DNA of 64,000 nt from Haliotis asinina (lineage: Eukaryota > Mollusca > Gastropoda > Lepetellida > Haliotidae), in the NCBI RefSeq assembly GCF_037392515.1, contig NC_090283.1, positions 16,067,001 through 16,131,000 on the forward strand. Reading direction: 5' to 3'. This document shows, piece by piece, positions 1 to 63,270 of this stretch. How positions within the stretch are numbered: the first letter of the stretch is position 1; the number at the start of each line of letters is the position of its first letter. The position numbers and the translations under genes were made by a program. The notes under the pieces are model-generated. The model had not been told where the DNA came from. It saw only the letters and a program-made list of their open reading frames with translations, and ran no database searches.

Positions 1-476
1 TCTCATACATTTGCTACTTTTCATGCAATCACATTTACCAGTACACAATGCAATGTATAAAACACTGAACATTAAGTGAAAAGGCAAGGCTCCAATGAAC
101 ATTATATTATAGTCTTAAGTCTTAGTGATCAATATATTATGTATGTGACCTGTTAGAGAGCACATACAACATACTTTCACCCGTTTCTGGTGCTTGGTTT
201 GGTGTAACCTTTTCCTGGAGAGATTCAGTGTGAGATTCTGATTTTCCACCACCTGTCAAATGCAAAAACATATTCAGGTGTGTTCGTTTGCTTTGGGAAA
301 CTGTGATTTTACGCCACTTGCAATACTATCATAACAATATCGATGCCATACAAACGCTTGTACCATTAAGCTGCCTCTTCGTCACCCCAAATCCACGTGT
401 GACATATTATCACAAACGGACAGTTATTATTGAGAAACCATGTCATGCCTATAAGACAAGGTATGGATGGTAACTT

Positions 477-515
477 CGACTGGGCTACTTCTTGCCCCTT
501 CTTCAGGTGATTGTA
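477..515 (-). repeat. CACCTGAAGAAGGGGC repeat fragment
   Basis: The minus strand reads CACCTGAAGAAGGGGC followed by AAGAAGTAGCCC. The motif recurs at 4732-4770 (duplicate) and at 22511-22540, so it is the end of a dispersed repeat. It can fold as a short GGGC/GCCC hairpin followed by GAA. Confidence 0.5.
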
Positions 516-959
516 TCGGCAATATTCAGAACGAAAATGAACAGAAGGCCTGTCTGCGGTATGCTGGTATATCATTAACTGAGACAGCTTTCCTAATTGT
601 GTCGTTAAATTGTTGCACATGACTTCCCACACAAAGTACTGTTATTACTATAGGGTATTTATATAGCGCACATATCCATGTAACTATTGCGCTGGCATTT
701 GTTTCCCTCGATCATTGGATGTCCGTCTTAGCGTCACATCGTATTATCAGTGGTGGACTGGGATACATAGTCACAGTACTTAGTGGCAGTAAACATTTTA
801 CTGCACATTACTGTACCCGCAACTAGGTGTATTCTTGTAGCCACCATCTGGTCTTATACCAACGAGTTCTTTTCAGTGCACAGGATTGTGCACTCTACAC
901 TAGGGGTTGTGACCACACTCAAAGAGTCTGCAAAGTCTTTTGACTCCAAGGTTTTTACA

Positions 960-1053
960 CTCGGTCACAGGTGGGTTCGATCCCGTCACCTCAATCTCGC
1001 TGGATCACTAGCTTGGCGCTTTAGCCAGCTCGCCCACCGCGCCCCACTGCACT
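960..1053 (-). repeat. tRNA-like SINE head
   Basis: On the minus strand the segment has an A-box-like GAGCTGGCTAAAGCGCC and a B-box-like GGGATCGAACCC, as in tRNA-derived SINEs. No cloverleaf closes, so it is not a tRNA gene. The duplicate lies at 5215-5308. Confidence 0.6.
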
Positions 1054-1394
1054 ACTAAATGCGAGTGGTGAGATGAGTTTCGTTGGACATAATTTTGCAG
1101 TTGCAATTTTGAGTTGTTTCACTTTCAAATAAGGAGGAAATGTGTCTTTAAAATTTTCATGAAGCTCATCAAAACAGTTGCAAGTGTTGATAGCCAGCAG
1201 TCACGATCCTATACAATAGTATGACATATTAGCACGTCATTTTGTGATGTCTGATGATAGATCTCTGGTAACACAAGCACACACTAAAGCGAATTCTTTC
1301 TCAAGGCAGCGGAGAGATTTGCTCTGCATTAAGGCACCAACACCTAACATCTGCATATGATTGAGTCACTGTCTGTAAACGAAGTAACACTTAC

Positions 1395-1514
1395 AAAGAT
1401 TACACGTTTGTCGACAGTTTTTACGCATGAATGGGAACATGACATTGTTCGTGTTGCAGAATCCATTCTTGGCATTAATATCGCATATTGGTGACGAATC
1501 CTCACAAACTGAGC
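1395..1514 (-). CDS. ShKT gene exon 4' (ShKT module, duplication copy 1)
   Basis: Near-identical second ShKT exon with the same splice sites and phase. If spliced after the 5650-5769 exon, T|GC at the junction supplies the missing sixth cysteine of the first module. The next exon must lie left of the window. Confidence 0.82.
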
Positions 1515-4500
1515 CTGGAAATATATAGAAATGCAGTCCACAAAAATGCTCAGCGTTCATGACACAAAAACACGCCATCGATAAGATAATTGGATACGAT
1601 ATGTATGTATATCAGCCAAGTCAGGCATGAAATCATGCCATCGAGAAACAAATCGGATATGTATGTATATCAGTCAAGTCAAGCATGAAATCATACCATG
1701 GAGAAACTAATTGGATCTGAAAATGTACATCAGCCAAGTCAGGTATGAAATCATGCCATCGAGAAACTAGCTGGATATGATATGTATGTATATCAGCCAA
1801 GTCAGGCATGAAATCATGCCATCGAGAAACTAATTGGATATGATAATGTATATCAGCTAAGTCAGGCATGAAATCATGCCATCGAGAAACTAATTGGATA
1901 TGATAATGCATATCAGCCAAGTCAGGCATGAATTCATGCCATCGAGAAACTAATTGGATATGATATGTATGTATATCAGCTAAGTCAGACATGAAATCAT
2001 GCCATCGAGAAACTAATTGGATATGATGATGTATGTCAACCACGTCAGGCATGAAATCATGCCATCGAGAAACTAGTTGGATATGATATGTATGTATATC
2101 AGCTAAGTCAGGCATGAAATCATGCCATCGAGAAACAAATTGGATATGATAAATTAAATGTATATCAGCCACGTCAGGCTTGAAATCATTCCATCGATAA
2201 TCAAACGGGACATAATAATGTATATCAGCCAAGTCAGATAAAAAGGGTTAAGGGTAGTGGTACTCCAGTTAATTGAAATAATGGAAATTTGGTCACAATG
2301 ACTGAACGACAAAGCAGTCCATCACGTTTTCTCATAACTGAACTCAAACAAATTTGAAAGACACGTTCGCATTGATAATATTTTTCATAGTGTGTGTTTT
2401 GCCTGCTACATTTCCTAAACACAACAAACTCGTTCCAAGTCATGACTGAATTTATCTTAAGACTTCAGGAAATTCATTTCCCTAACATACTACTCACCAT
2501 TTAAAGACTTGACATTTGTGAGAGCATTTTGTGTAATTAGCGAAAAGAGACGCTAAGACACGAAAGAACAACGTGTTGGGTTTTTTCGTTATTTTTCTGT
2601 ACTAACAATTATCATGGATGATAGAGTGGTTGTAATACGTCAGTCGTCAGTTGTAGTTTAACCAAAAGTAGTCTATTCTAGTAGGTGTTGCTGAAGACAA
2701 AGTCTTAGCCACATGTTCATACGTTCAGTTACATCATGACAAGCTTGAACATGTCCATTTGAAACATGCCAAGGCTGAACAAATTTCGTCAGGAAACAGG
2801 TGTCTTCTCTTTGGTAATTTTGTACATGCTGGAGGTATGAATAGTATGTTATTTCAGTTATAACATTCCTAGGCCTTGTGCAGGTACCTCTGTAAAAAAA
2901 ATACAGTTTGAGTTATAAGTTTTAATTTTTGATTTTTTAAAAAATTATTTTGATGTATATTTCTTCCAAGGGTTAGATCCACTTGACTGTTATGTGACTC
3001 AATGGAGTTTTCTGTGGGTTAGTGTACTCTGCGTAACGAGTAATCAGAGTCACATATCATACACCATAATCTGGAGCTATAGTCTCTACTGTTGATACTA
3101 ATCTATCATTCACAGAGTGCCACTGCAGCAGTTTAATGAAACAAGAATGGAAGTGCACGGTGTTTCACATATTTCGGAATGCTGCTACCATCGCTTCTAC
3201 AAGAAGCCGTGGAGATATGAGTTAGAACGGATGTTCTGGTGTCCATGCTTGGCAACTAACGGGATCGGGTCATCAGGCTCTCTGACTTGGCAGGCACATG
3301 TGATTGTGCGCCAGTTACTTACATCAGTGATTAGTTTCTATATTGCTGATTACGACATTAAACAAAAAACATACAAAACCTTTTAGCAGATGAAACGTTT
3401 GAAAAAGTGAATTCCTCCAGAAAACATTTTCAGGCACAATTGTTGTTTAGATTTTGACTTTTAGACAAATGCACAGAGTGAGTGAGTGAGTGAGTGAGTA
3501 CAGGTTTACGCCGCACATAGCAATATTCCAGCTATATGGTGGCGGTCTGTAAATAGACTGGACCAGACAATCCAGTGCTAAACAGCATGGACATCGTTCT
3601 GCGCAACTAGGAGCCGAAGACATGTCAACCAAGTCAGTGAGTCTGACCACCCGATCCCGTTGGTAGCCTCTTACGACAAGCATGGTCGCCTTTTATGGCA
3701 AGTATGGGTTGCTGAAGACCAACTGACCCCGGAAGTCCACATGCATCGCAAAAAGTCATGATAAGTATTGTTTTGTCTGCTTTTATTTTTTCACTTATCT
3801 CAAACAACACTCAGCAAATGTCCAGACTTCAAACTGACTGACTGAAGTTGGTTGTATGCCGATTTTAGCAAATATTTAAGCAACATCAAGGCAGGGGGCA
3901 CCAGTAATGGACTTCACACACTGTACCCGTGAGGGCATTCGAACCCAGGTATTCGGTGTGACGAGCCAATGCTGTAAACTCTAGTTTACCTCATCACCGT
4001 ATGACTTCAAAAGAAGCTCAAATGTGTTAAGATAATGTTCATGAACCAAAACAGCAAACATGTTTATCCGATTTTAACTCGCCTTTAAAGATACACAGAG
4101 GCTGAATTCTAAGTTAATTGTTGACAGTTCCAAGTTAATTTGTAACAAGCTTGAGCATGATCATTTAAAATATGTCAGCATTCAACTTCGTCAGGAAATG
4201 GGTGTAGTGCATGTGGATAACAATATTATTTGTTAATGTAAACATGTGCGTTGTTTCTCATACATTTGCTACTTTTCATGCAATCACATTTACCAGTACA
4301 CAATGCAATGTATAAAACACTGAACATTAAGTGAAAAGGCAAGGCTCCAATGAACATTATATTATAGTCTTAAGTCTTAGTGATCAATATATTATGTATG
4401 TGACCTGTTAGAGAGCACATACAACATACTTTCACCCGTTTCTGGTGCTTGGTTTGGTGTAACCTTTTCCTGGAGAGATTCAGTGTGAGATTCTGATTTT

Positions 4501-7500
4501 CCACCACCTGTCAAATGCAAAAACATATTCAGGTGTGTTCGTTTGCTTTGGGAAACTGTGATTTTACGCCACTTGCAATACTATCATAACAATATCGATG
4601 CCATACAAACGCTTGTACCATTAAGCTGCCTCTTCGTCACCCCAAATCCACGTGTGACATATTATCACAAACGGACAGTTATTATTGAGAAACCATGTCA
4701 TGCCTATAAGACAAGGTATGGATGGTAACTTCGACTGGGCTACTTCTTGCCCCTTCTTCAGGTGATTGTATCGGCAATATTCAGAACGAAAATGAACAGA
4801 AGGCCTGTCTGCGGTATGCTGGTATATCATTAACTGAGACAGCTTTCCTAATTGTGTCGTTAAATTGTTGCACATGACTTCCCACACAAAGTACTGTTAT
4901 TACTATAGGGTATTTATATAGCGCACATATCCATGTAACTATTGCGCTGGCATTTGTTTCCCTCGATCATTGGATGTCCGTCTTAGCGTCACATCGTATT
5001 ATCAGTGGTGGACTGGGATACATAGTCACAGTACTTAGTGGCAGTAAACATTTTACTGCACATTACTGTACCCGCAACTAGGTGTATTCTTGTAGCCACC
5101 ATCTGGTCTTATACCAACGAGTTCTTTTCAGTGCACAGGATTGTGCACTCTACACTAGGGGTTGTGACCACACTCAAAGAGTCTGCAAAGTCTTTTGACT
5201 CCAAGGTTTTTACACTCGGTCACAGGTGGGTTCGATCCCGTCACCTCAATCTCGCTGGATCACTAGCTTGGCGCTTTAGCCAGCTCGCCCACCGCGCCCC
5301 ACTGCACTACTAAATGCGAGTGGTGAGATGAGTTTCGTTGGACATAATTTTGCAGTTGCAATTTTGAGTTGTTTCACTTTCAAATAAGGAGGAAATGTGT
5401 CTTTAAAATTTTCATGAAGCTCATCAAAACAGTTGCAAGTGTTGATAGCCAGCAGTCACGATCCTATACAATAGTACGACATATTAGCACGTCATTTTGT
5501 GATGTCTGATGATAGATCTCTGGTAACACAAGCACACACTAAAGCGAATTCTTTCTCAAGGCAGCGGAGAGATTTGCTCTGCATTAAGGCACCAACACCT
5601 AACATCTGCATATGATTGAGTCACTGTCTGTAAACGAAGTAACACTTACAAAGATTACACGTTTGTCGACAGTTTTTACGCATGAATGGGAACATGACAT
5701 TGCTCGTGTTGCAGAATCCATTCTTGGCATTAATATCGCATATTGGTGACGAATCCTCACAAACTGAGCCTGGAAATATATAGAAATGCAGTCCACAAAA
5801 ATGCTCAGCGTTCATGACACAAAAACACGCCATCGATAAGATAATTGGATACGATATGTATGTATATCAGCCAAGTCAGGTATGAAATCATGCCATCGAG
5901 AAACAAATCGGATATGTATGTATATCAGTCAAGTCAAGCATGAAATCATGTCATGGAGAAACTAATTGGATCTGAAAATGTACATCAGCCAAGCCAGGCA
6001 TGAAATCATGCCATCGAGAAACTAATTGGATATGATATGTATGTATATCAGCCAAGTCAGGCATGAAATCATGCCATCGAGAAACTAATTGGATATGAAA
6101 ATGTACATCAGCCAAGCCAGGCATGAAATCATGCCATCGAGAAACTAATTGGATATGATATGTATGTATATCAGCCAAGTCAGGCATGAAATCATGCCAT
6201 CGAGAAACTAATTGGATATGATAATGCATATCAGCCAAGTCAGGCATGAAATCATGCCATCGAGAAACTAATTGGATATGATATGTATGTATATCAGCTA
6301 AGTCAGGCATGAAATCATGCCATCGAGAAACTAATTGGATATGATATGTATGTATATCAGCTAAGTCAGGCATGAAATCATGCCATCGAGAAACAAATTG
6401 GATATGATAAATTAAATGTATATCAGCCACGTCAGGCTTGAAATCATTCCATCGATAATCAAACGGGACATAATAATGTATATCAGCCAAGTCAGATAAA
6501 AAGGGTTAAGGGTAGTGGTACTCCAGTTAATTGAAATAATGGAAATTTGGTCACAATGACTGAACGACCAAGCAGTCCATCACGTTTTCTCATAACTGAA
6601 CTCAAACAAATTTGAAAGACACGTTCGCATTGATAATATTTTTCATAGTGTGTGTTTTGCCCGCTACATTTCCTAAACACAACAAACTCGTTCCAAGTCA
6701 TGACTGAATTTATCTTAAGACTTCAGGAAATTCATTTCCCTAACATACTACTCACCATTTAAAGACTTGACATTTGTGAGAGCATTTTGTGTAATTAGCG
6801 AAAAGAGACGCTAAGACACGAAAGAACAACGTGTTGGGTTTTTTCGTTATTTTTCTGTACTAACAATTATCATGGATGATAGAGTGGTTGTAATACGTCA
6901 GTCGTCAGTTGTAGTTTAACCAAAAGTAGTCTATTCTAGTAGGTGTTGCTGAAGACAAAGTCTTAGCCACATGTTCATACGTTCAGTTACATCATGACAA
7001 GCTTGAACATGTCCATTTGAAACATGCCAAGGCTGAACAAATTTCGTCAGGAAACAGGTGTCTTCTCTTTGGTAATTTTGTACATGCTGGATGTATGAAT
7101 AGTATGTTATTTCAGTTATAACATTCCTAGGCCTTGTGCAGGTACCTCTGTAACAAAATACAGTTTGAGTTTTAAGTTTTAATTTTTGATTTTTTAAAAA
7201 TTTATTTTGATGTATATTTCTTCCAAGGGTTAGATCCACTTGACTGTTATGTGACTCGATGGAGTTTTCTGTGGGTTAGTGTACTCTGCGTAACGAGTAA
7301 TCAGAGTCACATATCATACACCATAATCTGGAGCTATAGTCTCTACTGTTGATACTAATCTATCATTCACAGAGTGCCACTGCAGCAGTTTAATGAAACA
7401 AGAATGGAAGTGCACGGTGTTTCACATATTTCGGAATGCTGCTACCATCGCTTCTACAAGAAGCCGTGGAGATATGAGTTAGAACGGATGTTCTGGTGTC

Positions 7501-10500
7501 CATGCTTGGCAACTAACGGGATCGGGTCATCAGGCTCTCTGACTTGGCAGGCACATGTGATTGTGCGCCAGTTACTTACATCAGTGATTAGTTTCTATAT
7601 TGCTGATTACGACATTAAACAAAAAACATACAAAACCTTTTAGCAGATGAAACGTTTGAAAAAGTGAATTCCTCCAGAAAACATTTTCAGGCACAATTGT
7701 TGTTTAGATTTTGACTTTTAGACAAATGCACAGAGTGAGTGAGTGAGTGAGTGAGTACAGGTTTACGCCGCACATAGCAATATTCCAGCTATATGGTGGC
7801 GGTCTGTAAATAGACTGGACCAGACAATCCAGTGCTAAACAGCATGGACATCGTTCTGCGCAACTAGGAGCCGAAGACATGTCAACCAAGTCAGTGAGTC
7901 TGACCACCCGATCCCGTTGGTAGCCTCTTACGACAAGCATGGTCGCCTTTTATGGCAAGTATGGGTTGCTGAAGACCAACTGACCCCGGATTTTCATTGC
8001 GACATAGTTTTAGGGTCGACGTATTTGCCTCCACACACCAACATTGACGGTCCTGAAAGCCCCGAGGCTAATCTTGTTTTGTGTAGTTTTGTGAGTCTAC
8101 GTGCGTGCATGCGTGCGTGCATGCGTGCGTGCGTGCATGTGTATATGTGTATGCGTCACGGATCTCCATCGATCCCGTGGAACCAAGAGGAGTTCTGTTG
8201 ATCATAGGTCAGCTTATTGGAGGTCAAGAGTCGTTAATTGGACTGTCATGGTATATCATGAGCTGGTTTTGGAATCTCATGGAATATGCAATTTCGGGTC
8301 GTGTGTTTCGATCAATTAAACAAAAAAAAAGACATACCCAAGTTAACAAGAATTCGAAAAATCCAAAAACTAAATAAATCAAAACTTAATTGAAATAACG
8401 ATAATTCGGTTTAAAAGAAGAAAGAAGTAGGGTAAAGTCATTACCTTGTTTGCTGTGTATATCATCTCCGTGGACAAGGTTGTCTTCTACTTCCTGCACT
8501 GTAACAAACAGATAGCGCAAATTAAAATAACAGCTGTGAAGATCTAGGATAGGCTTGCTCTTCAGCAAAGTATCCATGAGCTAAAGGACAAGCAATCAGA
8601 GCGGATTGAAGGCTTGGCTAACACATGTCGCCGGATCTTAACTGCGTAGATAGAGTCTCCTGATCAACGGATTGTCCCTTGCGATAATCACGATACTGGT
8701 GCATGCGGCGTTAACCAAACAAGCTAACAAACCAACACACAAATGAGCCATGACGGCATATCATATGCACTGTTGTCACATGGCATCACTGGATTGTCCC
8801 TTCCGATTAAAACAGACAGCAGGGAATTTAACAACAAGCAAACAAACTAGTGTTCAAATATTGACTGGTAAGTGAATGAATACTGATTAATGCCTAACAT
8901 TATTTCAGCAGTATAATGGGATTTAGGAATTTAAGTCTGGACAATTCAATTCGTTTAGTACCTCCTTCGACAAGCATATCCCTTGGTTCTAGCGACAAAG
9001 CCTCAAATCTCCCTCAGCAGTGCTCCAGCTACATGGAGGCTGTCTGTAATTAATCGAGTTTGGAGCAGGAAAACCAGTGACCATGAGCATCGATCTACGC
9101 AACTAGGAGCACACGATACCGTTAGACGTCTGTTACGACAGGCTGGGGTCACTGATGACCAATTCTAGCCCGGATGTGCAGGGTTTATGAAACTAAGCAC
9201 TTCTAGAAATACATATGACGTGATAAAACTTACGTTTATTGAAAAGGGCTTTGTTTGATTCCTCCAATAGATTCAACTTCTGCATGACATCCTTTCTCAA
9301 GTCCGTGAAATACCTTTCAATGTCTGCAATGAAAAGGAAATGCAAACTATACCCTATGGTAAAGAATGGAATCGTCCGATGGGCAAGCCGAATGCTGAAC
9401 GACCTCGTTTAGGACAAGAATTTGGGGCAAATGGTATCAATAGCTGAATGGTGTCCATATCATAAGGGGTGAGGGAGGTAACTAGCTGCCATGACTGTCA
9501 TGAAAGGCGGCATTCCATCAATCTCTATTGGGTAAACCAAAAATGTAGTGAGTAGTCGTTAGTAAGTTGCCGCTTCCAGCAATACTACAGCGAAATAAAG
9601 AAACTGAAATTGAAATTGAATTGAAATCACGGCGGAGGACACCAGAATTGGGCCTCACATATTGTATCCATGTGGGGAAATGAACATGGGTCTTCGGTGG
9701 GATGGGCGGACGATTTGACCACTGAGCTACCTCATTGCCCGCAATCTTCTGTAATCTGGGTGACATTGGAACGAGTTTGCGGGAATGTCAGTTCGATGCA
9801 CTGACCATGTCTTTGGTCCCACAGCGCTCCAATCAAGATGCCTCTACGTTACCCCCTCAAAACAAGCATGCACGCGCGCACACTCGCACAAAACCAACTT
9901 GCTTTATGAATGATAACGGAGTTGGACCACATAAGTTCGCGAAAAACGCATAATTTTGTAAGATTTTTTATTATTGTCCAAAGTTAAATTTCTAGCATTT
10001 CTAGAAGATATCAAAATACTAAAAGAATTGCATCAGGTTCGCAAGGTATCCGTTTGCCGAACCTCCGTCTGTACAAAGCAATAGCAAATGCTGTGCTTAA
10101 AATAATTTGGTCTCTTAGCAAACAACTATATGAGGAACAAGTGAGATGTGAATCCATCGGATTCTGGCATGACAAAGGGTGAGTGAGTGAGTTTAGTTTT
10201 ACGCCGCATTTAGCAATATTACAGTCATGTGGCGGCTGTCTGTAAATAATCGAGTCTGGACCAGACAACCGAGTGATCGACAGCATGAGCATCAATTATC
10301 TGATACGTCTAATTACCTGTACGAGTATATTAGAAACCTAGGTTCCTCTGCAACGGGCTGTGCCATACAACGTGCTCTGACAAACGGAAATCTGGAAATC
10401 GTGGAAATCTCAAAACGAGGCTCGGTGGCTAGGAACGTTTGGCGGTCTGATACGGCCTAGATATTATATTAATCACATTGCACGTTGTGATAATACATTT

Positions 10501-16025: not shown

Positions 16026-16800
16026 CAAACCTCGGGAAATATGTTTGTCACACCTGTTACAAGCTGTTGTGAACGATAACCAGTGATCGGGCAGAGTGAA
16101 GTGAAAATGGAAAACAAAACACGCTGCTATTGAATCCTTGGGGCCTGCGGATGGGCCTGGCAAAGACACTTCGGGTAACAGACAACGCGAGTGTGGCTGT
16201 GCTATTGTGAAAGAGAAGCAGGTTAAATTAAGAGGTTAGGCACGGGCTAGACCTGATGATTAAAATACACTAACTAATACATACATAAGTACATACTTCT
16301 ACATATCATTAACAGTTGACAAGAATATACTCTTTCACGAAAGATTAAGAAAAATTCTGCACTTTTCAGTGAACGCGCTGTGCTTTCTCTAAGGACAAAA
16401 CGTTTGCATATATTCCTCGAAGGATTTTCGCTCATGCATATATAACACGCACATAAGATTGTTTATATGTCGCAGTTACTAATCAATATATTTATTTCCA
16501 TTTCCGCGTGCAAGTGTCTGATCAATATTGTGTGGAGGACAGCATGGTACGTGCCGAATGTCCCGCGATGTCACAGTGCAGACGCGTCTATTCTCATCCC
16601 AGAGCACATGCCATCTGCTACCTATCCACAAACATATCGATAACCTCAATACTACGGGTCGAAATACAATCTACAGTACAGGACTGATATGAAGTACTTA
16701 GACTTGCAACCTTCTAATCATCTCGCTCACGCACAGACTTTTGCATGTTGTATCGGACTTGTAAGGGCACGATTGAGTAAATACGCATAACTCGTCAATC

Positions 16801-17442
16801 ATGCCAGTCGACGATCGAGCGTTTGTGTCCTCCAGCCGGCGACAGGTGACGTTTGCCAGAGAAGCTGTCATTGCAGACGACAGTATTCGCGCAGGCGCAG
16901 ACGAAACGTGGTTTGTCGTCTGCTTCACTAACTATGTGCAAAAAGTTTTCTCCTTTGTTATGGAATCGCTCGGAATGGAGGCAAGGTCGGATCTGTCATT
17001 GCCTCAATCGAAGTCCAAGACGGTGATGGACGAAGCTAAGAAAATATGCATGGACTACATATATCACCGTCTCTTAGAAAAGGACTTGACAAGGAAACTG
17101 AGGTTTGGAGGTTACAATTCAGTACTGTCCGAAAGATACATTCACGCAGGGCAGGTGTTGGAGACGATGTATCCTCGGGTTTACACGGACGTTTCAAGGA
17201 AAATAGGCAGAACCATGAGCAGCACAGGTGTTGTGAAAGCAACTCTAAACGATGTCTTGAACATACTGTTTCGTGATTCTATCACCTGGGGTAAGGTTGT
17301 GTCAATGTTCGCGATAAGCAGTTCGTTTGCCGAGGAGTGTGTACAACAGGGACACCCTGACTTCGTCAACGAAGTAGTGGACACGGTTGGAGGATTTGTC
17401 GTCGTGCACCTCGTGGAATGGCTTGTAAAGCAAGGTGGATGG
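16801..17442 (+). CDS. BOK: BOK-like exon 1 (BH4, BH3, BH1, BH2)
   Basis: A single large exon of 214 codons ending GGA TGG|GTAAGA, so the donor follows the BH2 tryptophan codon. The first 35 or so residues are basic and acidic mixed sequence without an obvious domain. Confidence 0.92.
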
Positions 17443-20400
17443 GTAAGAACTTGACGCATTCTTTCTTTTTTTTAATTTGCCTCGTCAGACATAACTTTGT
17501 CATTACAGTGTTTGTGGATAATAACAGGGAAATATGAAACAGGGCCGAACGTGTCTCTAGTTAGTATGGACTGGGACCAGTCTCTGTTTGGAGTGTTTAA
17601 TCATTTACTTTCACATGGATTTATACGTATGTTTATGTTTAAGATATTTTAAGAGATGATTCACAACTAATAAGAGAAAGCAGACTGTTTTAGCGTAGAA
17701 TCTGTGCCTATTGCGCTATTGGTTTATTCGTACATGGAGGGTTGCAGAGGTTTGGGTAGGTTTGACCAATGATAGAGTGAATGAGTTTTAGGTTTAGGCC
17801 ACTCATATAGCGGCGGTCTGTAAACAATCGAGTCTGGACCAAACAATCCAGTCATCAACAACCAGTAAAAGTGGGGGGACCCAAAACACGATAAGGTCAT
17901 GAAGAAATGAGTTGTAATTGATTTGTAGTAGTGTTAACTGCCACCACCACTAAAGGAGATTGTCCAGGATAACCTGAGCAAATATTTACAAATATCCGTT
18001 AAAGAAACAAACCAAACGAATCGCGACCTCGTCTTCCATATCTAACAATATCAGGTACTTATAAATAACCCGCTCCCCAAACAACAAACTGTTGCACTAC
18101 GGACCTTATCGTGAACAACCATGGGGAAACAAACGTTTCACGTCATTCAAGGCCGCACAATGAATCCCTCTGGGTGTGAAGGAAATAACATGTTTACCCG
18201 TTAGGTCGATAGCATGTGAACGACAGAAACAGATAAACACTACACCTTAATTGATCCATAATGATCATGGCCATAGAGGACGCAGCAGGTATTTTTATCG
18301 AGCCAAGGATCTGGGACTGCGCAATATACGTCCGTTTGGTCTGGTGTTATCCGATCGTATATCTATCAGTATCTATGAGCGGGCTACAAGTGCCGACTGA
18401 CGATGGAATGTTTGACGTAGTTTTGAACTGGTGTCAGATGTTATGCTTATGTAGAGTAGTTCCGAGGTTGCGCAATATGCTTGGTCGACTGATTTACCTA
18501 TAGCTTATATGTTAGATGAAGAGAGATGCATGGAGTTTTGAATCATTGCATGTGTGGGTCATACGGTATCACAAATGCGTAGATCGATTTTCGTGCTGTT
18601 CATCATTTGATTGTCTGGTTCAGATCTCATTATTTACAGACCAATTTCCTATCTGAACATTGCTTAGTGCAGCGTTTAACAACGTACTATCACGCTTATG
18701 CGTGCGTCCGTGCGTACGTGTGTGGGTGTGAGTAGGCGAGCGTGTTTTCGTCTTGTCAAATACCGCATTTATAGTGCTGGTGCACTCTGATATATGGAAA
18801 ACCATCTGGGACACGGTGCCCTAACTCCAGGGCGGCCATTCTTGCTTCAGCCTCGTAAAGGCGATCTGTTGGCAATTTAGCAACAACTTTCGTCAAAGAC
18901 ATGACTCGGGGTCGAACCATCGACCTTCCGCTCTCCGGGCGGACGCTTAATCCCCTCGACCACGCCTACAGATTCTGCAACTAAGAGACCGACAATGGTG
19001 TCAATATTTGTTCCAAACAGAACGTATTCAAACATTTCCATTTTGAATGTTTGATCCAAAACACATTTAACCATATCGCATTGGTGTTCGGTAGCCTAGA
19101 GCACTTGGTTAAAGTATCAGGTTTACACATGAGCAGGACCCGTGTAGGTCCCGGGGTAGAATAGGTCTTGAGCAACCCATGCTTGCCATAAAAGGCGACT
19201 GTCCTTGTCGTAAGAGGCAACTAACGGCATCGGGTGGTCAGGCTCGCTGACTCGGTTGACACGTCATCGGTTCCCAATTGCGCAGATCGATGCTCATGTT
19301 GTTGATCACAGGATTGTCTGGTTCAAACTCGATTATTTACAGACCGCCGCCATATAGCTGGTATTTTGCTGAGTGCGGCGAAAACTAAACTTACTCACTC
19401 ACTCAAATGAGCAGAATGGATGGTGCCGTGATACTACTGGAATATCGCTTAAGTCGGCGTTAAATTAGATTCATTCATTTATTCATTCATCCATTCATTC
19501 ATTCATTCATTCATACACTTGGATTATTTTTTTCACATATTACTAGAACGGAGAAAGACTGTATGTCAACTACCTATACAAAGAGGAACACAGCATTCAT
19601 GCACTCAATTCATCTGATGAAGAGACGATATGGCTGCAATACTGCCGATGTGACGTTAAATATTAACTCACTCACTCTGATGAAGAGGAAGCACATCCTA
19701 GGAAAACTGTGCTCCTGAAAATATGTTAGCAACCATAAATTGTCTCTTTTATGTGTATCAGTGACAGATGCCACTCAAAGACTTGATTCAGGAGAGCAGT
19801 AAAGCCCTACATTCACTCCACTCTATCCTCGCTATCAAATATTCGCTCTGTTGTGGTGCGACTGTTAATCATTCTATGTCAGTTCTGAATGCTAGTTACA
19901 CAACTACCCATGTTTAGGTCAACGTTCTTGACGACCCCTCGTGGATGAAGTTTGTGTAACTGTATCGAACTCCTAAACACCCGCAGTGTTTGTCCGGATT
20001 TTCACTGACGCCACATACAGAATATATTTGCTGTTTAACGCCGCACTTAGCAATATTTCACCTATATGGCGGCGGTCTGTAAACAATTGATTCTGGGCGA
20101 GGCAATCCAGTGATCAACATCAAGAGCATCGATCTACGCATTTGGGATACGCTGACAATCAAGTCAGTGAGACCTTACGACGTAGTCGCCTCTTACGACA
20201 TGCATGTGTTGCTGAAGATTCCGCGGAAACCGTTCATAGACACGGGCTGCGTATATGTCGAAAGCGAGTACATAATCGACCAGACAGTCCAGTGATCGAT
20301 GTCATGAGCAACGGCCTGAATACAAAGACTAATAATTCACCAGCCGTACTGCCTGTCTCGCGTCACATCTTACTGGCGTCAGTGGTTGCTATGGGCCAGT

Positions 20401-39200: not shown

Positions 39201-42200
39201 AATATTACTGTGTGGTGTTAAACAACAATGTAAACAGTATTTTTCTGTTTTGAAAACTTGAATCAAATTACTTCATTACCTAACCACCCCACCCCATACA
39301 TACTTGACCCCACCACCCCACCCACTTGCCCACCCTTTTCCTCTGTTACAGTACATCTCAAATGGTAGATACATAGATACCACGGTAACTATGAAAGTCC
39401 GGGCGATGGGTTAGCCTACTGGTTAAAGCAATTATTTTTCCCATCTGGGTTCATTTCACCAAATAGGTACAACATGTGAAGCCTATTTCTGGTGCACCAC
39501 ACCGCGATATTGAGGGAATATTGCTAAAAGCTACGTAAGAACTAACCTCACTCAATCACTTAATAGTCTTTTCTCTTTGCATGTACAGAGGCACGACGCG
39601 AAACAGAAGCTTATGAGAGACACAAAGCCGAGAACAAGCCTGGCCACGTCTCATATCACGGAACAGTAGGTGAGATATAAAGGATGTAATGTCTCATAAT
39701 TGCACAGTGAGATACGGTGAGTGATAAGACATCCCTGCATGCATGACAGATGGATAGCCCAGTGGTTAAACCGTTTGGTTATAACACCTAGGACCTGGGT
39801 TTCAACCTAGGCACTATACATGAACCACAGTGGTATTGCATGAGTAACACAAATACCCACTCACTCACACACTCCTTTACTCACCCACACACTCACACTT
39901 TCACTCACTGACCCACACGCTCACCCTCTCCTTCACCCACTGCTTCACTCATCTGCTTACTCACACACTCCTTTACTCATCTGCTCCTTCACTCACCCAC
40001 TCCTTCATTCATCTGCTCCTACACTTACCCACTCTCTCACCCACTCACTCACTCTTTCCTTGACTCACACACTCCTTCAATCCTCTACTCCTTCACTCAC
40101 CCACTGCTTCACTCACCCGCTCCTTCACTCATCTGCTCCTTTACTCATCCGCTCCATCACACATCTGCTCCTTCACTCACCCACTCACCCTTTCCTTGAC
40201 TCACCCACTCCTTCACTCCTCTGCTCCTTCACTCACCCACTGCTTCATTCATCCGCTCCTTCACTCACCCATTTTCTCATCGGCTCCTTCACTCATCTGC
40301 TCCTTCACTCATCCGCTACTTCATTCATCTGCTCCTTCACTCACCCACTGCTTCACTCACCCACTTACTCATCCGCGCCTTCACTCAAGCACTCTTTCAC
40401 TCATCCGCTCCTTCACTCATCTTCTCCTTCACTCATCCGCTCCTTCACTCATCTGCTCCTTCACTCACCCACTTACTCATCCACTCCTTCATTCAAGCGC
40501 TTTTTCACTCATCCGCTCCTTCACTCATCCGCTACTTCATTCATCCGCTCCTTCACTCACCCACTGCTTCACTCACCCACTTACTCATCTGCGCCTTCAC
40601 TCAAGCACTCTTTCACTCATCCGCTCCTTCACTCATCTTCTCCTTCACTCATCCGCTCCTTCACTCATCTGCTCCTTCACTCACCCACTGCTTCACTCAC
40701 CCACTTACTCATCCGCTCCTTCATTCAAGCACTTTTTCACTCATCCGCTCCTTCACTCACCCACTCCTTCACTCACCCTCCTTCACTCATCCGCTCCTTC
40801 ACTCACCCACTCACTCACCCACGTCTTCACTCACCCACTCATTCATTCATCCACTCCTTTAATCATCCGTTACTTCATTCACCCACTCACTCACCCACTC
40901 ACTCACCCACCCCTCACTCACCCATTCCTTCATTCATCTGCTCACTCACTCAGTAACACACCCTTTCACTCATCCGCTCCTTCACTCACCCACTCTCTCA
41001 CCCACTCCTTCACTCACTTACCCACTCTCTCCTTTACTCACCCACACGCTCACTCCTTCACTCACTCCTTTACTCACCCACACACTCTCTCCTTCACTCA
41101 CTCCTTTACTTGCCCATACTCCTTCACTCACTCCCTTACTCGCTCACACACTCACTCCTTCACTCTCCTTTACTCACCCACACTCACTCTTTCACTCACT
41201 CCTTTACTCGCCCACTTACTCCTTTACTTACCCACACACTCCTTCACTCACTTCTTCACTCACTCCTTCACTCATCTGCTCCTTCACTAACCCACCTACT
41301 CCTTCACTCAAACGTACATTCCCCAATCCTTCACTCACTAACCCACACACTCATCCACTCCTTCACTCACTCACTCCTTTACTCACTTCACTTGCTCACT
41401 CCTTAACTCACTCATTCCTTCACTTCTTCACTCACACAACCCACCCACCCACTCACTCTCACTTACAGTCACGCAGTCAGTCACTCACTCACTGACTGCT
41501 CCAGGATCTCACAAAGTGTTTTTCACTGGCTCCAGTGTAATGAGACTGTTGTGTCTGTTTCAGGAGGAGGAGAGATAACGGAGGGAGAGGCGAGGAGAAA
41601 TATGGCAATGAAGAATATGAACGCCAAGTACAATATGCTGGTTAGTGTCATCTAAAATCATACACGCTGTCATATTGAGTTGAGCTGCACTTATGACACT
41701 TGATAACCCATCTTTGATTTCTAATGAAGAGTTCATGTATTCTCTCCCATTATGTTTCTGACTCGCAGCTGTGTAACATCTTTTTAGATTTCACTACGGG
41801 AAAAATACTAAGTTTAAAGCATTCTAAGACAAAAAACATCAATATCATGAAGAGGGACACCAGAAATGGTCTTCACACATATTGGGAACCCGGGTCTTTC
41901 AGCATGATTATGTATTGGCTCGTCATGTCGAAGACACGCATTCGATTCCTTACATGGCTACTATGTGGGCGGACCATGTCTGGTATCTCACACGTTAATA
42001 TTGCTGAAACTGACAGTCAACTCTCGTCTGTCCGACACTCAATGATCTGACATTCATGTTAATCCGACCAAAAATTAGGGAACCATTTAAAACAGTGATT
42101 ATTTGCTATCCTTAATCCGACATTCTAGCTTTCCGACTCCGACACACCAAGCTAGCAAGTGATTATTGTAAATACATCGTAAAAACATTTGTTAATCCGA

Positions 42201-45200
42201 CAATCAACACAGCTGGTCAGATAATCTGACCAGAAACAGTCACACATGGGTGGTAATTAATGTGTTCCTTACTGGCTGCTGCTTGACACCACTGTCGGTG
42301 AACATCACACTTGTAATTACAAATACAAGATAATTAATTGAGATGATTTAATCAAGAAATAACAATAGAGCAAGCTGTTTTTAGAATTTGCCAAATATAA
42401 CAAATAACTCACACACCTAAGCAATGTTTTCCATGATATCTTGTTGGTAATAAACCAGTTATTAAATATGAGCTTTCAACCAATTCCCAACACTAGTAGT
42501 GATACAATATTGTATTGTTGCTACATTACAATACATGATACAACTCTTGTTGCCAGGAGCAACGGAAAAAGCGAAAGGAGGAAGAGAAGAGGGTCCAGGA
42601 GGAAGAGTTCTTGAAAAAGAAGATGGAGGGCAGAAGGAAGGTGAGTCAGACACAATTTAGTTTCAGGAGACTGAATATATGTAACAGTATAAAAATTTCT
42701 GGCCTTGACCACGTGACCAAGGATAAGCCTGTTGCAAGCTGACAAGGTAAGGATGTCACCGATGGGATGACGCCACGTCCGGCATACACAAGGCCATTCT
42801 AGATCATAGGGAACAAATGTTGGGAATATAACTTTTGGATTACACTTTCTTAGTAAAGTGGAATTATTGTACTTTCTTAATTAAGATCCATTTGCTGGGT
42901 ATGAAACGCCCAAAAATTTCAGCTAGACCACAGGGCTGGTTAGAAGTAAAACTTGCCAGCCTGGACCAAAACTGACATGCCCTAAAAAAATATGTATTTA
43001 CTTAACATAATTACATTAAAATTTGTAAAACATTGACAAGCCTTATAACAATGCAAGAATGAACAATTTATTTCAGATTTGTGTTTAATACTTGAATTCA
43101 TGTTATCACTTCATCATTGTGTTGCACAAATGCAAAGCAAGACAATACACTTTTCACATTGATATAGCACTAATGTGAATACAAGGAAAAATCAAAGAAA
43201 GCCATTGAAAATACATACACATGCATTCAACCACACTCACAGTTTACCTCATCCGACTCATTTTAGTGAGTGAGTTTAGTTTTACGTCACTTTTAGCAAT
43301 ATTCCAGTAATATCACAGATGGGGACACCAGAAAATGGGCTTCACACATTGTACCCATGTGGGGAATCGAACCTCTAGGCTAATCCACTGCCCAGGGCCT
43401 AGATTTTCAAAGCTCTCTTAGCACTAAGATAATCATAAGTGCCATACATTAACATTAATTTTCAACTATCCAAGCGCTAAGAGAGCTTTGAAAATTTAGG
43501 TCCTGGCTCGTATGTGGCTATGCAAGGGAGATAACTACAGGTAAGGATATATCCTATGGTTGAAGGTGTCTGATGAGTTTGTGCCTTTATCCCTGAATCA
43601 AGGTGAAAGTTGTTTTTGTTGATTATGTGAGACAGTGACATCTTAGATATTTTCTGTTGGCAGACCGAGGAAAACAAGAGGCGGGCTGAGAGAGAGGATG
43701 CAAAGAAACATGAAGAAATGGACAGGTGAGGCTCGTTAGTTCTTTTTAAGGTTTTAGAATTGAATGTAAATGATAGACAAAAATGGAATTAAAAATGCAG
43801 TCAACTTTTGGTTAGCATGATCAATCAATTCATTTTTAGCTGCTCAAGTGCAAATATGCTAAAAACTTAAACAGAACTCTATAGTTACCAAAGTCTTTCA
43901 GTTTGAGTACAAGGCTCCAATGAGACCTCCGTTTGATTTGGTGTTTGACCTGCTATTTGATCATTTTCAATAAGATTCTTCATACAAGTAGAAACATCAG
44001 ATTTCATTTAACTCTAAAACTCTGAAGAGGATAAAATGGATCGTGATGGAGCATTAATAAACTTGCAAGAATTACATTGTTGTCAGAGGGCAAGGTTGGG
44101 TTTGGATGTTTTTAAACACCTTAATCAGCAATATTCCAGCAACATAGCGAGTGTCTGTAAATAATCGAATTTGGACTAGACAATCCAGTGGTCAACAGCA
44201 TGAGCATGGATCTATGTAATAGGGATACCATGACATGTGTCAACCAATTTAGTGGGCCTAACCACCCGATCATGTTAGTTGCCTCTTACGACATGCATAG
44301 TCGCGTGTATCACTTTCCATATACACAACTGGAGTGAGTGAGTGAGTGAGTTTAGTTTTACACCACACTCAGAAATATTCCAGCTAAATGCGGCTGTCTG
44401 TAAATAATTGAGTCTGGACCAGACAATCCAGTGACCAACAATATTAGCATCCATCCGTGCTAATGAGTCTGACCACCCAATCCCATTAGTCGCCTCTTAC
44501 CACAAGCATAGTCGCCTTTTGTGGCAAGCATGGGTTGCTGAAGACTTATTCTACCCTTGATATTGGCAGAAGGAAGTTAAAAAATTACATCATCCTGAGA
44601 CTGATAACGTCCTAGTAGTTAAAGACTATTTCTTATGACAAGTATGTGTTACTGAAGGGCAGCTCTAACATGAATCTTCAAGGGTCATAGGGCATGGATA
44701 CATCGGATGTTTTCATAAGAATGCAGTGTGTCATGTTTGAGTTTGGGATGCGATGAATAATTTTTGAGAATGTTAAGTGAAGAACAGTCATAAAAGTTTC
44801 CAGCTTCAAAATATATTTCAATATTTCAGCCATATCGTGTCATATTTCAGTAAATAATGAATTTTTAGAAATATTTGGTGAGAAATAACTATATTGCATT
44901 CTCAGCCAATTTTCATTTAATTTTCAAAGCTGATTGTGTTTATTTATATGTTTGGTTAATTTTTCGACTAGAACTGAATTTTATGAATGTTGTTTGTCTC
45001 TGTTCCAGAATCAAAAACAAATTTCTGGAGAGATTTGAACGATCTGCGCCTAAAGGTAAGACACTGAATACTCTTCATGATGAATGGTTAAGTACTGAAG
45101 TATTAAGTACTGAGTGAATGAGTGAGTGAGTGAGTGAGTGAGTGAGTGAGTGAGTGAGTGAGTGAGTGAGTGAGATTTAAATTTTCCCTCAGCCTTACCA

Positions 45201-58242: not shown

Positions 58243-58601
58243 TCAAATTGATACTGCCCTAGGTAACGGGTCGATATTCAGATCAGAAGGCAAGTTGCCA
58301 TTAGACATCTCAATGCTCACATGGCCACTGTCACTGGAACTTTCATTTTGTTCAGGAATTGTGGGTAAACTGAATCGGACAACTGGTGATGTATTGTCAT
58401 GGAGTCCAAGGTTGTGGGGCTCCCGCAGACTCCCTGGAACACTGTTGGTTGTTTCGTTGACCTCCATCTGCTGAATAATAGCATTTTCTTGTTCTGCTAG
58501 ACGGCGCCGATGGCGAATAACCAGAAGAATGCCCAACAGAACGCCTGCGACGACGAGCAGAACTATGAGGCAGCCCAGCGCAATCTTACCTGCCGTGTTT
58601 A
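58243..58601 (-). CDS. Membrane protein exon E (transmembrane and tail)
   Basis: Acceptor TTTCATTCACAG, then two bases completing a codon and 118 codons to TGA. Hydrophobic core IALGCLIVLLVVAGVLLGIL, basic stop-transfer RHRRR, polar tail. The open frame continues upstream to 58794, but that part is repeat-like Tyr/Pro/Thr sequence from the intron. Confidence 0.85.
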
Positions 58602-61600
58602 CTGTGAATGAAAGACAGAGGAATGACTTGTCATTGAGGAAAACATTTTGAACAAATGCGACTCTGGATTTTCCGACTCCAGGTTTTGGCCAAACAACAA
58701 TAATACGGATGTAGGTGGGGTATATAGGGTTTGTGGATGTATACAGGTAGTATGGGTGTATGCAGACAAGTGTAGAATATATGAGTGCATACAAATGGGT
58801 GTTGGTGACTGTATAAGGTGGGGTAGTTGCACATAGGTGAGGTGAGCCTATATAAGTATGGTGACTGCTTATAGGTGGGTGTTATATATACATATATATA
58901 GGTGTGGTGGGTGTATACAGGTTGGGTGACTGTATATAGGCATGTGTGTAATAGATGAGTATATACATGGGTGTATATAGGTAGGTGTGAATACATATAG
59001 GTGAGTGTAGTTGTACATTGGAAATGTGACTGTATATGGGTGGATATAGGCAGGTGTATACAGGTGGATATGGGTGGCTGTATGCAGGTATGTGTAGGTG
59101 TATACAGATGGGGTAGTAGGTTTCCTTGTGAATTGTTTGAGCTCTGTTTTCACAGGATTTTTTTCATCACATTATTTTTCAGCTTTGTAAGTTGTATTTA
59201 CATTTTTGATAATTTGGTATTGTAAGTCCACACGTGCGAAAGAATCTGCAAAGTTGTGTTTAGATTTAAATTCCAAGAACTGACAGACATAGGTAAATCC
59301 TGGAACTTACACTGTAAACAGGACTCCGCCTTGGATAGTCCAACTCTGTCATTTATGAAGAATGTCCTCTGTTGACTCTCTACCAAGAAGTCCGCCTGAA
59401 AAAAGGTCGAGATTGCTTGTATAATACCCTAGAAACTTTCCTGAGATGCCAAGTTACTGTTGTGCCTCTGAGATGAAGCTATGGTATTGACTAGTCCTTG
59501 GTTTTAGAACAATAACTACTGCATTTCTGGTGCATCATAACACACTGTATCTTGTCATCTAATAGTTGATTGTGACGGAGCATCCACACAACACTTACCT
59601 ACCCCATAGAATCTTGTCATCTGACAACTGATTCTGACTGGGGGATCCACACAACACTTAACCCACAGAATCTTGTCATCTGATAGCTGATTGTGATGGA
59701 GCATCTACACAACACTTGCCTAACCCACAGAATCTTGTCTTCTGATAGCTGATTGTGATGGAGCATCCACACAACATTTACCCTAACTTACAGTATCGTG
59801 TCATCTGATAGCTGATGTAATGGAGGATCTGCCAAACCCAAGACGTACCTTAACCCACAGTTTCTTGTCATCAGTCATACCAAGCAGGACTTGCATCTGG
59901 ATGCTCTTGTCATACCCAGGTATGATCTGAATCTCATTGTCATTTGTAAAAGTGTGGCTCCACACCTGGGGGGGTCTGTCCGACTGAAACACAAACATGA
60001 AACATGAAACATTCATACAGACTTCAGCATCATGAGTTTCCTCAGGAATGAGATCCTTTCATTGGTGTGGGAGAAAAGTGAATGAGTGAGCGAGTGTAGT
60101 TCTTGCCACTGTTAGCAATATTCCAGCAGTAGTGTAGCAGGGAACACCAGCAATGGGCTTCATAAATTTGTACCAGTGTGAGGAATCAAACCAAGTCTTC
60201 GGTGTGATGAGCAAAAGCTTTAACCATTAGGCTTCCAAGACATCATGTAGAAGAAACGAGAAGGGACGCCGTAAAAATCAAGGAACAAGTGCACACAAGG
60301 TAACCAGGTAAGTGAAGTTAATTCTTCTTTTCATTCACACAACATCAAACAAACAAACATACCTACCATGTAGTAACAACCTAAGCACAAGTTGTAGGTA
60401 GAAACTCTAACCATAATGAAACGTACAATCGCCACGACACTTGAAGTAAAAGTGAACTTTGAAAGGTTCGCACTTGTGCGGTTCAGGAGATCAGGCCACT
60501 TCCGTGCCTACAGATTTGTCGATACATGAGGTAGCCATTCATGGGAATGGCGAATCAACAACTGTCTGATCTCATTCAAGTGAAGCTTGAGGTAATATGT
60601 ATAGTCCTATGGTAAGGTAAGTAAAATATTTATAGCACTAAAGACAAATAGGTTACCAAGTTGTAAGCACTCAAATCTTTGAAGGGCATTTATGCAGAAT
60701 GTAGAAGAAAAACAAGATTTATAGGTGTCAGCTCTTTTATTGTCAATAGCATGACATTTCAGAGCATATGCTGGCTCCTTCATCAGGTGAATGGTAGGGA
60801 GTATCAAGAGTGTAAATATACATACATGAGAAAAGAAGAAAAGAAACATGTTTAACTATGTTGAGGAATGAATATGTTATACAAACATGATGCAAGTAAC
60901 ACACTAAAACAACATGGTAATAGTCTAATAGACTTTATGGGATAAAATATATAATATAAGCTCATAGGTGACGTCTATGGTACAGACACACAGGTGTTGT
61001 GCTCTGACCTATCATCAGATGGAAGCTGACATCTGTGGTACAGGCACACAAGTGTTGTGCTTTAACCTACCATCAGCTGGAAGCTGATGTCTATGGTATA
61101 GACACACAGGTGTTATGCTCTGACCTACCATCAGCTGGAAGTTGACATCTATGGTACAGCCACATGGGTGTTGTGCTTTGACCTACTATCAGCTGGAGCT
61201 GAGGTCAGAGGTACAGACACACAGGTGTTGTGCTTTGACCTACTATCAGCTGGAGCCGAGGTCAGAGGTACAGACACACAGGTGTTGTGCTTTGACCTAC
61301 CATCAGCTGGAAGCTGGCATCTATGGTACAGACAAGTGTGCCATGACCTACTTTCAACTACAGGCTGGCATCTATGACACAGATAAGCAGAGAGATATTG
61401 TGCCATGATGTACCTTCAACTGAAAGCTGACATCTACGGCACAGAGAGACAGGTGTTGTGCCATGACCTACCTTCAACTGAAAGCTGACTTCAATGATAC
61501 AGACAGACAGTTGTGCCATAACCTACCTTTGACTGCAAGCTGACATCTACAGTTGAGAAAGACAGGTGTTGTGCTATGATCTTCCCTCAACTGGAAGCTG

Positions 61601-63270
61601 ACATCAACTGTTGAGAAAGACAGGTGTTGTGCTATGACCTACCTTCCACTGGAAGATGACTTCTATGATACAGACAGACAGTTGTGCTATAACCTACCCT
61701 CAACTAGAAGCTGACATCAACTGTTGAGAAAGACAGGCGTTGTGCTATGATCTACCTTCCACTGGAAGCTGACTTCTATGATACAGACAGACAGTTGTGC
61801 TATAACCTACCCTCAACTGGAAGCTGACATCAACGGTTGAGAAAGACAGGTTTTGTGCTATGACCTACCTTCCACTGGAAGATGACTTCTATGATACAGA
61901 CAGACAGTTGTGCTATAACCTACCCTCAACTAGAAGCTGACATCAACTGTTGAGAAAGACAGGTGTTGTGCTATGATCTACCTTCCACTGGAAGCTGACT
62001 TCTATGATACAGACAGACAGTTGTGCTATAACCTACCCTCAACTGGAAGCTGACATCAACTGTTGAGAAAGACAGGTGTTGTGCTATGACCTACCTTCCA
62101 CTGGAAGCTGACTTCTATGATACAGACAGACAGTTGTGCTATAACCTACCCTCAACTAGAAGCTGACATCAACTGTTGAGAAAGACAGGTGTTGTGCTAT
62201 GACCTACCTTCAACTGAAAGCTGACTTCTATGATACAGACGGACAGTTGTGCTATAACCTACCCTCAACTGGAAGCTGACATCAACGGTTGAGAAAGACA
62301 GGTTTTGTGCTATGACCTACCTTCAACTGAAAGCTGACATCTATGGGTTCATTACAGTAGTTGATGGTTGCTGTGATATGCACCATGATGACACCATCAA
62401 TTCTGTAGCGACAGTCAGCATGGTAGCCACTGAATCTACAAATCTGACCTGTAAACACAAGCAGACCGTGTCTATCATAGGGGTTCTGCACCAAATCCCA
62501 GTGTACTCAATGAACCTGCCTGAAAACACAAGGACATCAAGTTTATGATGGGTTAAATACCTTCTTTTAGAGCAGCTGTTCTACTTCCAAATCCAGTATA
62601 CAAATACAGGTTCTATCATGGGTTCATCTATCATTGTACACACCTACAGTGTAGCCACCGAACCTACAAATCTGGGCCTAGATTTTCGAAGCCCTCTCAG
62701 TGCTAAGAGTAAGATAGTCGTAAGTTAATGTTAGTGTATGGCACTTACGACTATCTTGGTGCTAAGAGAGCTTCAAAGATCTAGGCCCTTACCTGCAAAC
62801 ACAAGGATTATTATCATCATCATAATGCACAACATGGGTCCATACATCTTTTTATTACCTATGAAGACTAACATATCAGGGTTAATATTTTTCATATGAT
62901 GCCCTGGGGCAAATTATCACTGTGTCATGGTGACGTGTCGCTATGAACAATGCTACAACGTTTCTTATCTGACGTTGTGGTCTACATGTGGCAATGGTGG
63001 TTAGCAAACCTATGTTTAAAGTAGACTTTAGTTTATTTTCCTAAATTTGACAATTTGGTTATAATATAAACAGAACATTATATGCATGCCCATGTCATAC
63101 TGTGTCTATGACACTTGTGAATAAATATTGGTATGTACCTTGCTCTCTCACAGGAAATACCAACATTTTGGCATTCGTGTCGTAAACATAGTATGACATG
63201 TGCATTCGTATAATATCCTCTATTTACATGCTCATAGTTCTGACACGGAATGTACAAATCTACACATCCA
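58243..63270 (-). CDS. Unrecognised single-pass membrane protein (5' end not found)
   Basis: Five exons join in phase on the minus strand: 63270-63152, 62448-62321, 59983-59849, 59395-59311 and 58601-58243. They give 274 residues of an incomplete protein. The ectodomain (1-161) has a cysteine-rich part (YIPCQNYEH, LCLRHECQNVG, CRFSGYHADCRY, NYCNEP) and then a mostly cysteine-free beta-like stretch. A hydrophobic segment at 162-184 is followed by RHRRRL, which fixes the tail inside the cell. The 90-residue tail is polar with a DSGHVS motif at 246-251. I do not recognise the family. The first listed exon needs a preceding exon ending in two bases, so the signal peptide lies upstream, possibly beyond the window. 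The donor chosen for the first exon (CCT|GTGAGA) is the one whose phase fits; AAG|GTACAT 11 bases later does not. Confidence 0.75.
58695..59117. repeat. GTATA/GGTG minisatellite in intron D-E
   Basis: Loosely repeated TATACAGGTGGGTG and TATATAGG units of about 24 bases. Frames open on either strand are artefacts. Unlike the next two arrays, it is not built from exon sequence. Confidence 0.85.
59311..59395 (-). CDS. Membrane protein exon D
   Basis: Acceptor CTTTTTTTCAG, donor T|GTAAGT, 28 codons (ADFLVESQQRTFFINDRVGL to ESCLQ), the membrane-proximal ectodomain. Confidence 0.8.
59523..59848. repeat. Minisatellite copied from the exon C 3' end and donor
   Basis: About five units of about 60 bases. 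On the minus strand each contains a version of exon C's end (GATGACAAGATTCTGTGGG then TTAG). The following donor position varies: GTAAGT after GGGTAG near 59600, GCAAGT near 59718, and a lost GT near 59660. The array directly abuts the true donor at 59848. Confidence 0.85.
59849..59983 (-). CDS. Membrane protein exon C
   Basis: Acceptor TTTGTGTTTCAG, donor AAG|GTACGT, 45 codons (SDRPPQVWSHTFTNDNEIQI to DDKKLWVK). Its last bases and donor seed the array at 59523-59848. Confidence 0.82.
60078..60238 (-). repeat. SINE-A copy
   Basis: GAGTGTAGTTCTTGCCACTG, GGGAACACCAGCAATGGG and CTTTAACCATTAGGC; in intron B-C. Confidence 0.8.
60738..60786 (-). ncRNA. Hammerhead-like motif (probably inactive)
   Basis: The minus strand reads CTGATGA, a short GGAGC/GCTCT stem, GAAA, then a TGTCA/TGACA hairpin and ATA. 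That is the order of a hammerhead ribozyme core. No convincing stem I was found, and one base bulges in stem III. Such motifs occur in Penelope-like and related retroelements. Confidence 0.3.
60961..62320. repeat. Minisatellite copied from the exon B 3' end and 5' splice site
   Basis: About 23 units averaging 57 bases directly abut the true exon B donor. On the minus strand each unit has exon-like GATGTCAGCTTCCAGTTG, then GAAG or GAGG, then in most units an intact donor GTAGGT followed by TATAGCACAAC or CATAGCACAAC. Two unit types alternate over 61600-62320, giving a higher-order period of about 115 bases. Left-hand units (60961-61330) are more diverged. Confidence 0.95.
62321..62448 (-). CDS. 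Membrane protein exon B (cysteine-rich; seeds the minisatellite)
   Basis: Acceptor TTGTGTTTACAG, donor AAG|GTAGGT. Encodes QICRFSGYHADCRYRIDGVI to IDVSFQLK. Its last 20 or so bases and its donor are the unit of the array at 60961-62320. Confidence 0.8.
62505..62673 (-). repeat. Duplicated exon B acceptor segments
   Basis: On the minus strand CTTGTGTTTTCAGGCAGG (62513-62530) and CAGATTTGTAGGTTCGGTGG (near 62673-62654) repeat the acceptor and the start of exon B at 62448. The second copy is separated from its polypyrimidine part (TTGTGTTTGCAGG near 62800) by the MITE at 62674. Confidence 0.65.
62674..62788. mobile_element. GGGCCTAG palindromic MITE
   Basis: GGGCCTAGATTTTCGAAGC and GCTTCAAAGATCTAGGCCC ends with a self-complementary body (AGATAGTCGTAAG and CTTACGACTATCTT). 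Inserted in the duplicated acceptor copy of exon B. Confidence 0.88.
63152..63270 (-). CDS. Membrane protein exon A (cysteine-rich)
   Basis: Acceptor CATGTTCCTTAG, donor CCT|GTGAGA. Encodes GCVDLYIPCQNYEHVNRGYY and 19 more residues ending HECQNVGIS; the next cysteine is split across the junction. Confidence 0.65.

Follow-up and report, generated by a model that had tools for sequence, protein, structure and literature searches.

A border-spanning minisatellite in an abalone gene, a mollusc counterpart of the lancelet mirages

Tandem repeats whose unit lies across an exon-intron border are known in lancelets as "mirages" (PMC3087553, PMC3902484; here and below, published systems are described from the available parts of the papers cited). 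They are found in Adh3, in the globins BflGb6 and BflGb9, in TnC and in PGBD5, with units of 10-160 bp, and (i) 5' and 3' borders are both affected; (ii) the AG/GT signals are kept in many units, not in all; (iii) splicing is reported to be regular; (iv) in one mirage gene the number of units differs between two haplotypes (PMC3087553, PMC3902484). In human IFI6 (6-16/G1P3), a minisatellite provides several splice donors, and two downstream units are used, giving isoforms (PMC4526556); the reference lists of PMC4526556 and PMC2572611 credit this multiple-donor minisatellite to Turri 1995. In humans, new introns have also been linked to internal tandem repeats located at exon-intron boundaries (PMC2812944), and novel introns have been proposed to arise from tandem repeats or from tandem duplication of DNA carrying splice signals (PMC2812944, PMC4974935, PMC3087553). 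The present work concerns a stretch of 64,000 nucleotides of the abalone Haliotis asinina (assembly GCF_037392515.1, contig NC_090283.1, positions 16,067,001 to 16,131,000 of the forward strand), hereafter the window, which contains an array of 24 units built on the end of exon 2 of a gene and on its 5' splice site (donor). All coordinates are those of the window.

We regard this array, large and ordered, as a mirage of a mollusc gene in which more than one border is affected. We favour, with a probability of about 0.84, the reading that it is a neutral duplication of an exon border, normally spliced. A first-pass annotation of the same DNA knew of no described gene so arranged, a view that the lancelet mirages (PMC3087553, PMC3902484) and human IFI6 (PMC4526556) contradict. 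The abalone array shares with the lancelet mirages (i) a unit lying across the exon-intron border of a real gene, a period of minisatellite size and several tandem units; (ii) splice signals in many units, not in all (GT in 21 of the 23 intronic copies); (iii) the involvement of donor and acceptor borders, and homogenised units standing beside diverged ones. It differs by its host, a mollusc, by its 24 units mostly of 58 or 55 bp with a higher-order period of 113 bp, and by the three borders affected in one small gene. In BflGb6 the edges of the array escape homogenisation, whereas in the abalone the distal part is diverged and the unit bearing the exon end resembles unit 3 at 97%.

As in IFI6, the repeat units at the exon end carry donor sequences. 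The IFI6 unit is of 12 bp and in-frame, and downstream donors can give longer in-frame proteins. In the abalone, on the contrary, the spacings are mostly 58 or 55 bp, every intronic donor leads to a stop and a longer in-frame protein is obtained in 0 of 23 cases. Duplication of an exon-intron boundary is common to the array and to intron gain by tandem duplication, but the abalone copies lie inside an old intron and no sign of a new one is seen. In molluscs, a polymorphic 27-bp intron minisatellite has been described in abalone (PMC6905558) and simple repeats in cone-snail introns (PMC3862624), with no mention of border-spanning repeats in the available part of either paper. No mollusc mirage was recognised, as judged from titles and abstracts, among the papers listed by the literature searches, which mostly lie outside subscription journals. 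The mirage phenomenon would extend from lancelets to a mollusc and may be a more widespread way for introns to grow, perhaps also to be gained.

Gene, protein and repeat structure

The host gene lies on the minus strand, and its exons were read from the sequence as follows.

62321..62448, minus strand: exon 2 ("exon B"), 128 bp, ending in ...PIDVSFQLK; repeat unit 1 starts with the last 25-26 bases of this exon
62315..62320, minus strand: true 5' splice site of exon 2, GTAGGT (unit 1), from donor scoring and the gene model
59849..59983, minus strand: exon 3 ("exon C"), 135 bp, of which the last 24 bases recur in the array that follows
59311..59395, minus strand: exon 4, 85 bp
58243..58601, minus strand: exon 5, coding part and stop codon, with a likely transmembrane helix (by eye) and a tail

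Once joined, exons 2-5 code for a piece of 235 amino acids that is 100% identical, over its whole length, to an annotated uncharacterized H. asinina protein of 255 amino acids (P0001). In P0001 the donor at 62320 (AAG/GTAGGT, the slash marking the exon edge 62321/62320) joins exon 3. Exon 1, i.e., the first 20 residues of P0001, was not located within the window; these residues are likely a signal peptide, judged by eye. The Pfam scan of the protein gave no family reaching the cut-off, and P0001 is likely a membrane protein, given the helix read by eye in exon 5. A protein of H. cracherodii (P0002) is 77% identical to that of H. asinina. Profile searches gave further homologues in Patella vulgata and in the freshwater mussels Sinanodonta woodiana and Potamilus streckersoni.

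The array itself comprises two nested features.

60961..62345, minus strand: border-spanning minisatellite, 24 units, donor spacings of 51-62 bp, mostly 58 and 55 in alternation; 23 decoy donors, 21 with GT
61610..62345, minus strand: homogenised exon-proximal part (units 1-13) with the 113-bp higher-order period, defined by identity at lag 2

Units were counted by anchoring on the donor: unit 1 consists of the exon end and the true donor, and the other 23 are decoys within the intron. Tandem Repeats Finder (TRF) calls the array at 60969-62346, with a period of 58 and 24.2 copies; super-periods of 113, 226 and 339 bp score higher, the 58- and 55-bp units being nested within the 113-bp period. 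This is also seen in the identities between units. At lag 2 they reach 93-98% for units 1-11, 81% for unit 12 and 63-90% from unit 13 on, while next neighbours are 72-78% identical among units 1-12. Unit 1, which bears the exon end, follows the same rule (97% with unit 3). The units vary by scattered point changes, ordered in a graded pattern. Such a distribution suggests recent growth or homogenisation by pairs, at the exon-proximal side.

The 26 exonic bases beside the exon-2 donor match their intron copy with a score of 47, the maximum in 200 dinucleotide shuffles being 27; the match is therefore not due to chance. Concerning the direction of copying, proteins were aligned at the junction (P0001, H. 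cracherodii, P. vulgata, S. woodiana and P. streckersoni). In the exon tail (PIDVxF), the residues P, I, D, V and F do not vary among the five proteins and no residue is inserted at the junction, thus the exon appears to be the source and the intron copies its derivatives. On this alignment, the end of exon 2 is old coding sequence: PIDVxF is invariant across the gastropod and bivalve proteins aligned and must therefore predate by far the array, in which paired units are 93-98% identical.

The first-pass annotation had counted about 23 tandem units, each made of the 3' end of exon 2 and its donor. The number holds for the decoys (24 with the exon-bearing unit), the coordinates and the exon edge at 62321 agree with the P0001 junction and the array calls, and the composition of the unit is borne out by the shuffle-tested match.

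Decoy donors and the protein they would give

Donors were scored with human values for the matrix and the U1 5' end, not fitted to abalone, so that the scores are a rough guide. The true site of exon 2 scores 5.8. Six of the 23 decoys score equally (the nearest lies 113 bases downstream of the true donor), six read AGG/GTAGGT (4.2) and three ATG/GTAGGT (3.7); the others are weaker (six, 1.9 or less) or have no GT (two). Good donors, i.e., those scoring 3.7 or more, thus number 15 of 23, and decoys had rightly been described as near-equal to the true donor (six equal, 15 near in score). For comparison, a score of 5.0 is obtained for the true donor of exon 3 and of 2.1 for that of exon 4. Outside the exon-2 array, seven sites between 62448 and 58602 score 3 or more, the true exon-3 donor included.

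Two properties that might have set the donors apart were rejected. Special conservation of the decoy donors is ruled out, since, out of 47 windows of nine columns, 16 (that of the donor among them) are at least as conserved as the donor and 12 of 39 dinucleotide columns (GT included) are kept in at least 22 of the 24 units. An RNA structure hiding the decoys is likewise not supported: in predicted local folding the first donor is no more accessible than the decoys (0.001 unpaired, against 0-0.049), several of which are more open.

The coding consequence of each decoy was obtained by extending exon 2 to the decoy and joining it to exons 3-5. In all 23 cases translation first ends at one and the same TGA, 12 residues past the true edge (VGHSTKPVFLNR*). 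No decoy keeps the frame open to exon 3, including the ten for which the added length is divisible by three. Over the array, each of the three frames contains 26-33 stops. Since the same TGA is met by the 23 decoys, none of them lengthens or rescues the protein, and protein lengthening by decoys is ruled out. The functions first proposed for the array thus find little support: (i) alternative donor choice would not lengthen the protein, given the in-frame TGA after VGHSTKPVFLNR; (ii) loss of the true site would not be buffered, a substitute donor leading to the same truncation; (iii) conservation lends no weight to a splice-site reservoir, since 12 of the 39 dinucleotide columns, GT included, are kept as well as the donor GT.

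Copies of other borders of the gene

The seven exon borders present in the window were compared with the adjoining introns, against 200 shuffles. Three of them have intron copies whose score is reached by none of the shuffles: the exon-2 donor, the exon-3 donor and the exon-2 acceptor. For the other four, the intron matches are reached by 38, 197, 107 and 142 of 200 shuffles. The features concerned, besides the exon-2 array, are the following.

59538..59872, minus strand: second border-spanning minisatellite, period of about 62 bp, made of the exon-3 end and donor, then five further copies
62651..62805, minus strand: in intron 1, a single decayed copy of the acceptor border of exon 2 (polypyrimidine-CAG and 26 exonic bases), interrupted by a palindromic element
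62513..62532, minus strand: candidate second copy of the exon-2 acceptor (CTTGTGTTTTCAG), score 25, weak and not established

The decayed acceptor copy, joined across the element, scores 58, the maximum in 500 single-base shuffles being 25. The candidate copy (25) must be compared with unrelated places of intron 1, where matches to this border reach 26. Use of either of these upstream acceptor-like sites would also break the frame. The palindromic element inserted in the decayed copy is of 114 bp (62675-62788), resembles a miniature inverted-repeat transposable element and has GGGCCTAGAT ends; this end motif is also found at 43395 (+) and 22629 (-).

The exonic overlap is of 24-26 bases in the three border copies (62448, 62321 and 59849), which may be a coincidence, three cases being too few. 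The position of arrays relative to borders was also simulated by random placement of eight arrays, hand-picked from 58 TRF rows (mostly of period 30 or more, with some edges joined or adjusted manually). In 0.2% of trials, two or more arrays have a gene border no further than 40 bp from their edge; this 40-bp measure was chosen after the data had been seen, and the result is not leaned on as support. Plain coverage of at least two of the seven borders occurs in about 19% of trials.

Origin of the array and competing explanations

The mirage-type reading supposes the following steps. A segment of about 57 bp (some 25 bases from the coding end of exon 2, followed by the donor and by about 30 bp of intron) would have been duplicated in tandem, probably via slippage or unequal exchange. 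The array would have expanded to 24 units and, judging from the identity pattern, its exon-proximal part would later have been homogenised as 113-bp pairs. The intron copies would be removed along with the intron, and use of the first, authentic donor would give the normal membrane protein of 255 amino acids. Decoys would have no role in making the protein, any use of them adding the same premature stop; the likely cost of mis-splicing would be nonsense-mediated decay, or a product of 75 amino acids devoid of the membrane helix. The same process would have acted at the exon-3 donor and at the exon-2 acceptor. Normal splicing is suggested by the annotated protein and by the conserved junction. 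If it is confirmed, the gene would offer a clean natural test of 5' splice site choice among many near-equal sites 55-58 bases apart.

Three points weigh against this reading. First, P0001 may itself come from a predicted gene model, biased towards the open frame. Second, no sequence feature explaining the choice of the first donor was found among those compared (score and predicted accessibility), and 6 of 23 decoys score as high as it does. Third, on the same human matrix, the decoy at 59598 in the exon-3 array (TAG/GTAAGT, 6.3) outscores the true donor at 59848 (5.0); its use would also meet a stop.

The last point agrees with another explanation, in which decoys act as a poison-donor switch: used in some tissues or conditions, they would lower expression by nonsense-mediated decay or give a short secreted form that lacks the helix. 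The convergence of the 23 decoys on one truncated frame and the 15 good donors among them are in its favour. Nevertheless, the donor columns show no special conservation, an early stop is expected in any frame given 26-33 stops in each, and the described mirages splice regularly (PMC3087553, PMC3902484); such a switch is thus unlikely. A bolder form would be that abalone genes repeatedly grow border-spanning minisatellites and that poison donors constitute an off-switch tunable by copy number, array length setting the output of the membrane protein (or of the short secreted form). Each added unit would then raise the odds of a decoy splice ending in the same stop. We consider it quite improbable.

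It is highly improbable that the array is in reality shorter, its copy number being due in whole or in part to the assembly. Pairs of 113 bp with such high similarity are certainly difficult to assemble, and the window holds elsewhere a 3.7-kb duplication, 98.9% identical. However, the units differ by scattered point changes in a graded order, and the phenomenon is seen independently at exon 3, in a second array that is diverged.

In the reverse history, the exon would have extended into a minisatellite already present and so acquired its end, which would account for the greater divergence of units 13-24, the most remote from the exon. This history conflicts with the PIDVxF motif, invariant across the aligned gastropod and bivalve proteins, without insertion and far older than the array, and its probability is accordingly very low. 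Finally, the splice-site reservoir lengthening the protein, as first proposed for this locus, has in its favour the near-equal decoy donors and the human IFI6 precedent (PMC4526556) and can practically be dismissed, the sequence read here contradicting it (0 of 23 decoys open to exon 3).

Besides the favoured mirage-type array and its gene, the window contains other features. Segments 1-3733 and 4256-7990, 4255 bases apart, are 98.9% identical over 3739 aligned bases and represent either a recent tandem duplication or an assembly duplicate; each contains an array with a period of about 60 bp (1567-2237 and 5822-6495). The open reading frame at 16777-17451 codes for a Bcl-2 family domain (Pfam, E 1.3e-19). 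About 1.5 kb at 39933-41497 consists of a ACTCACCC-type repeat, with a strong strand bias and long open frames encoded by the repeat itself, and the GC skew is -0.65 in the corresponding region 40001-42000.
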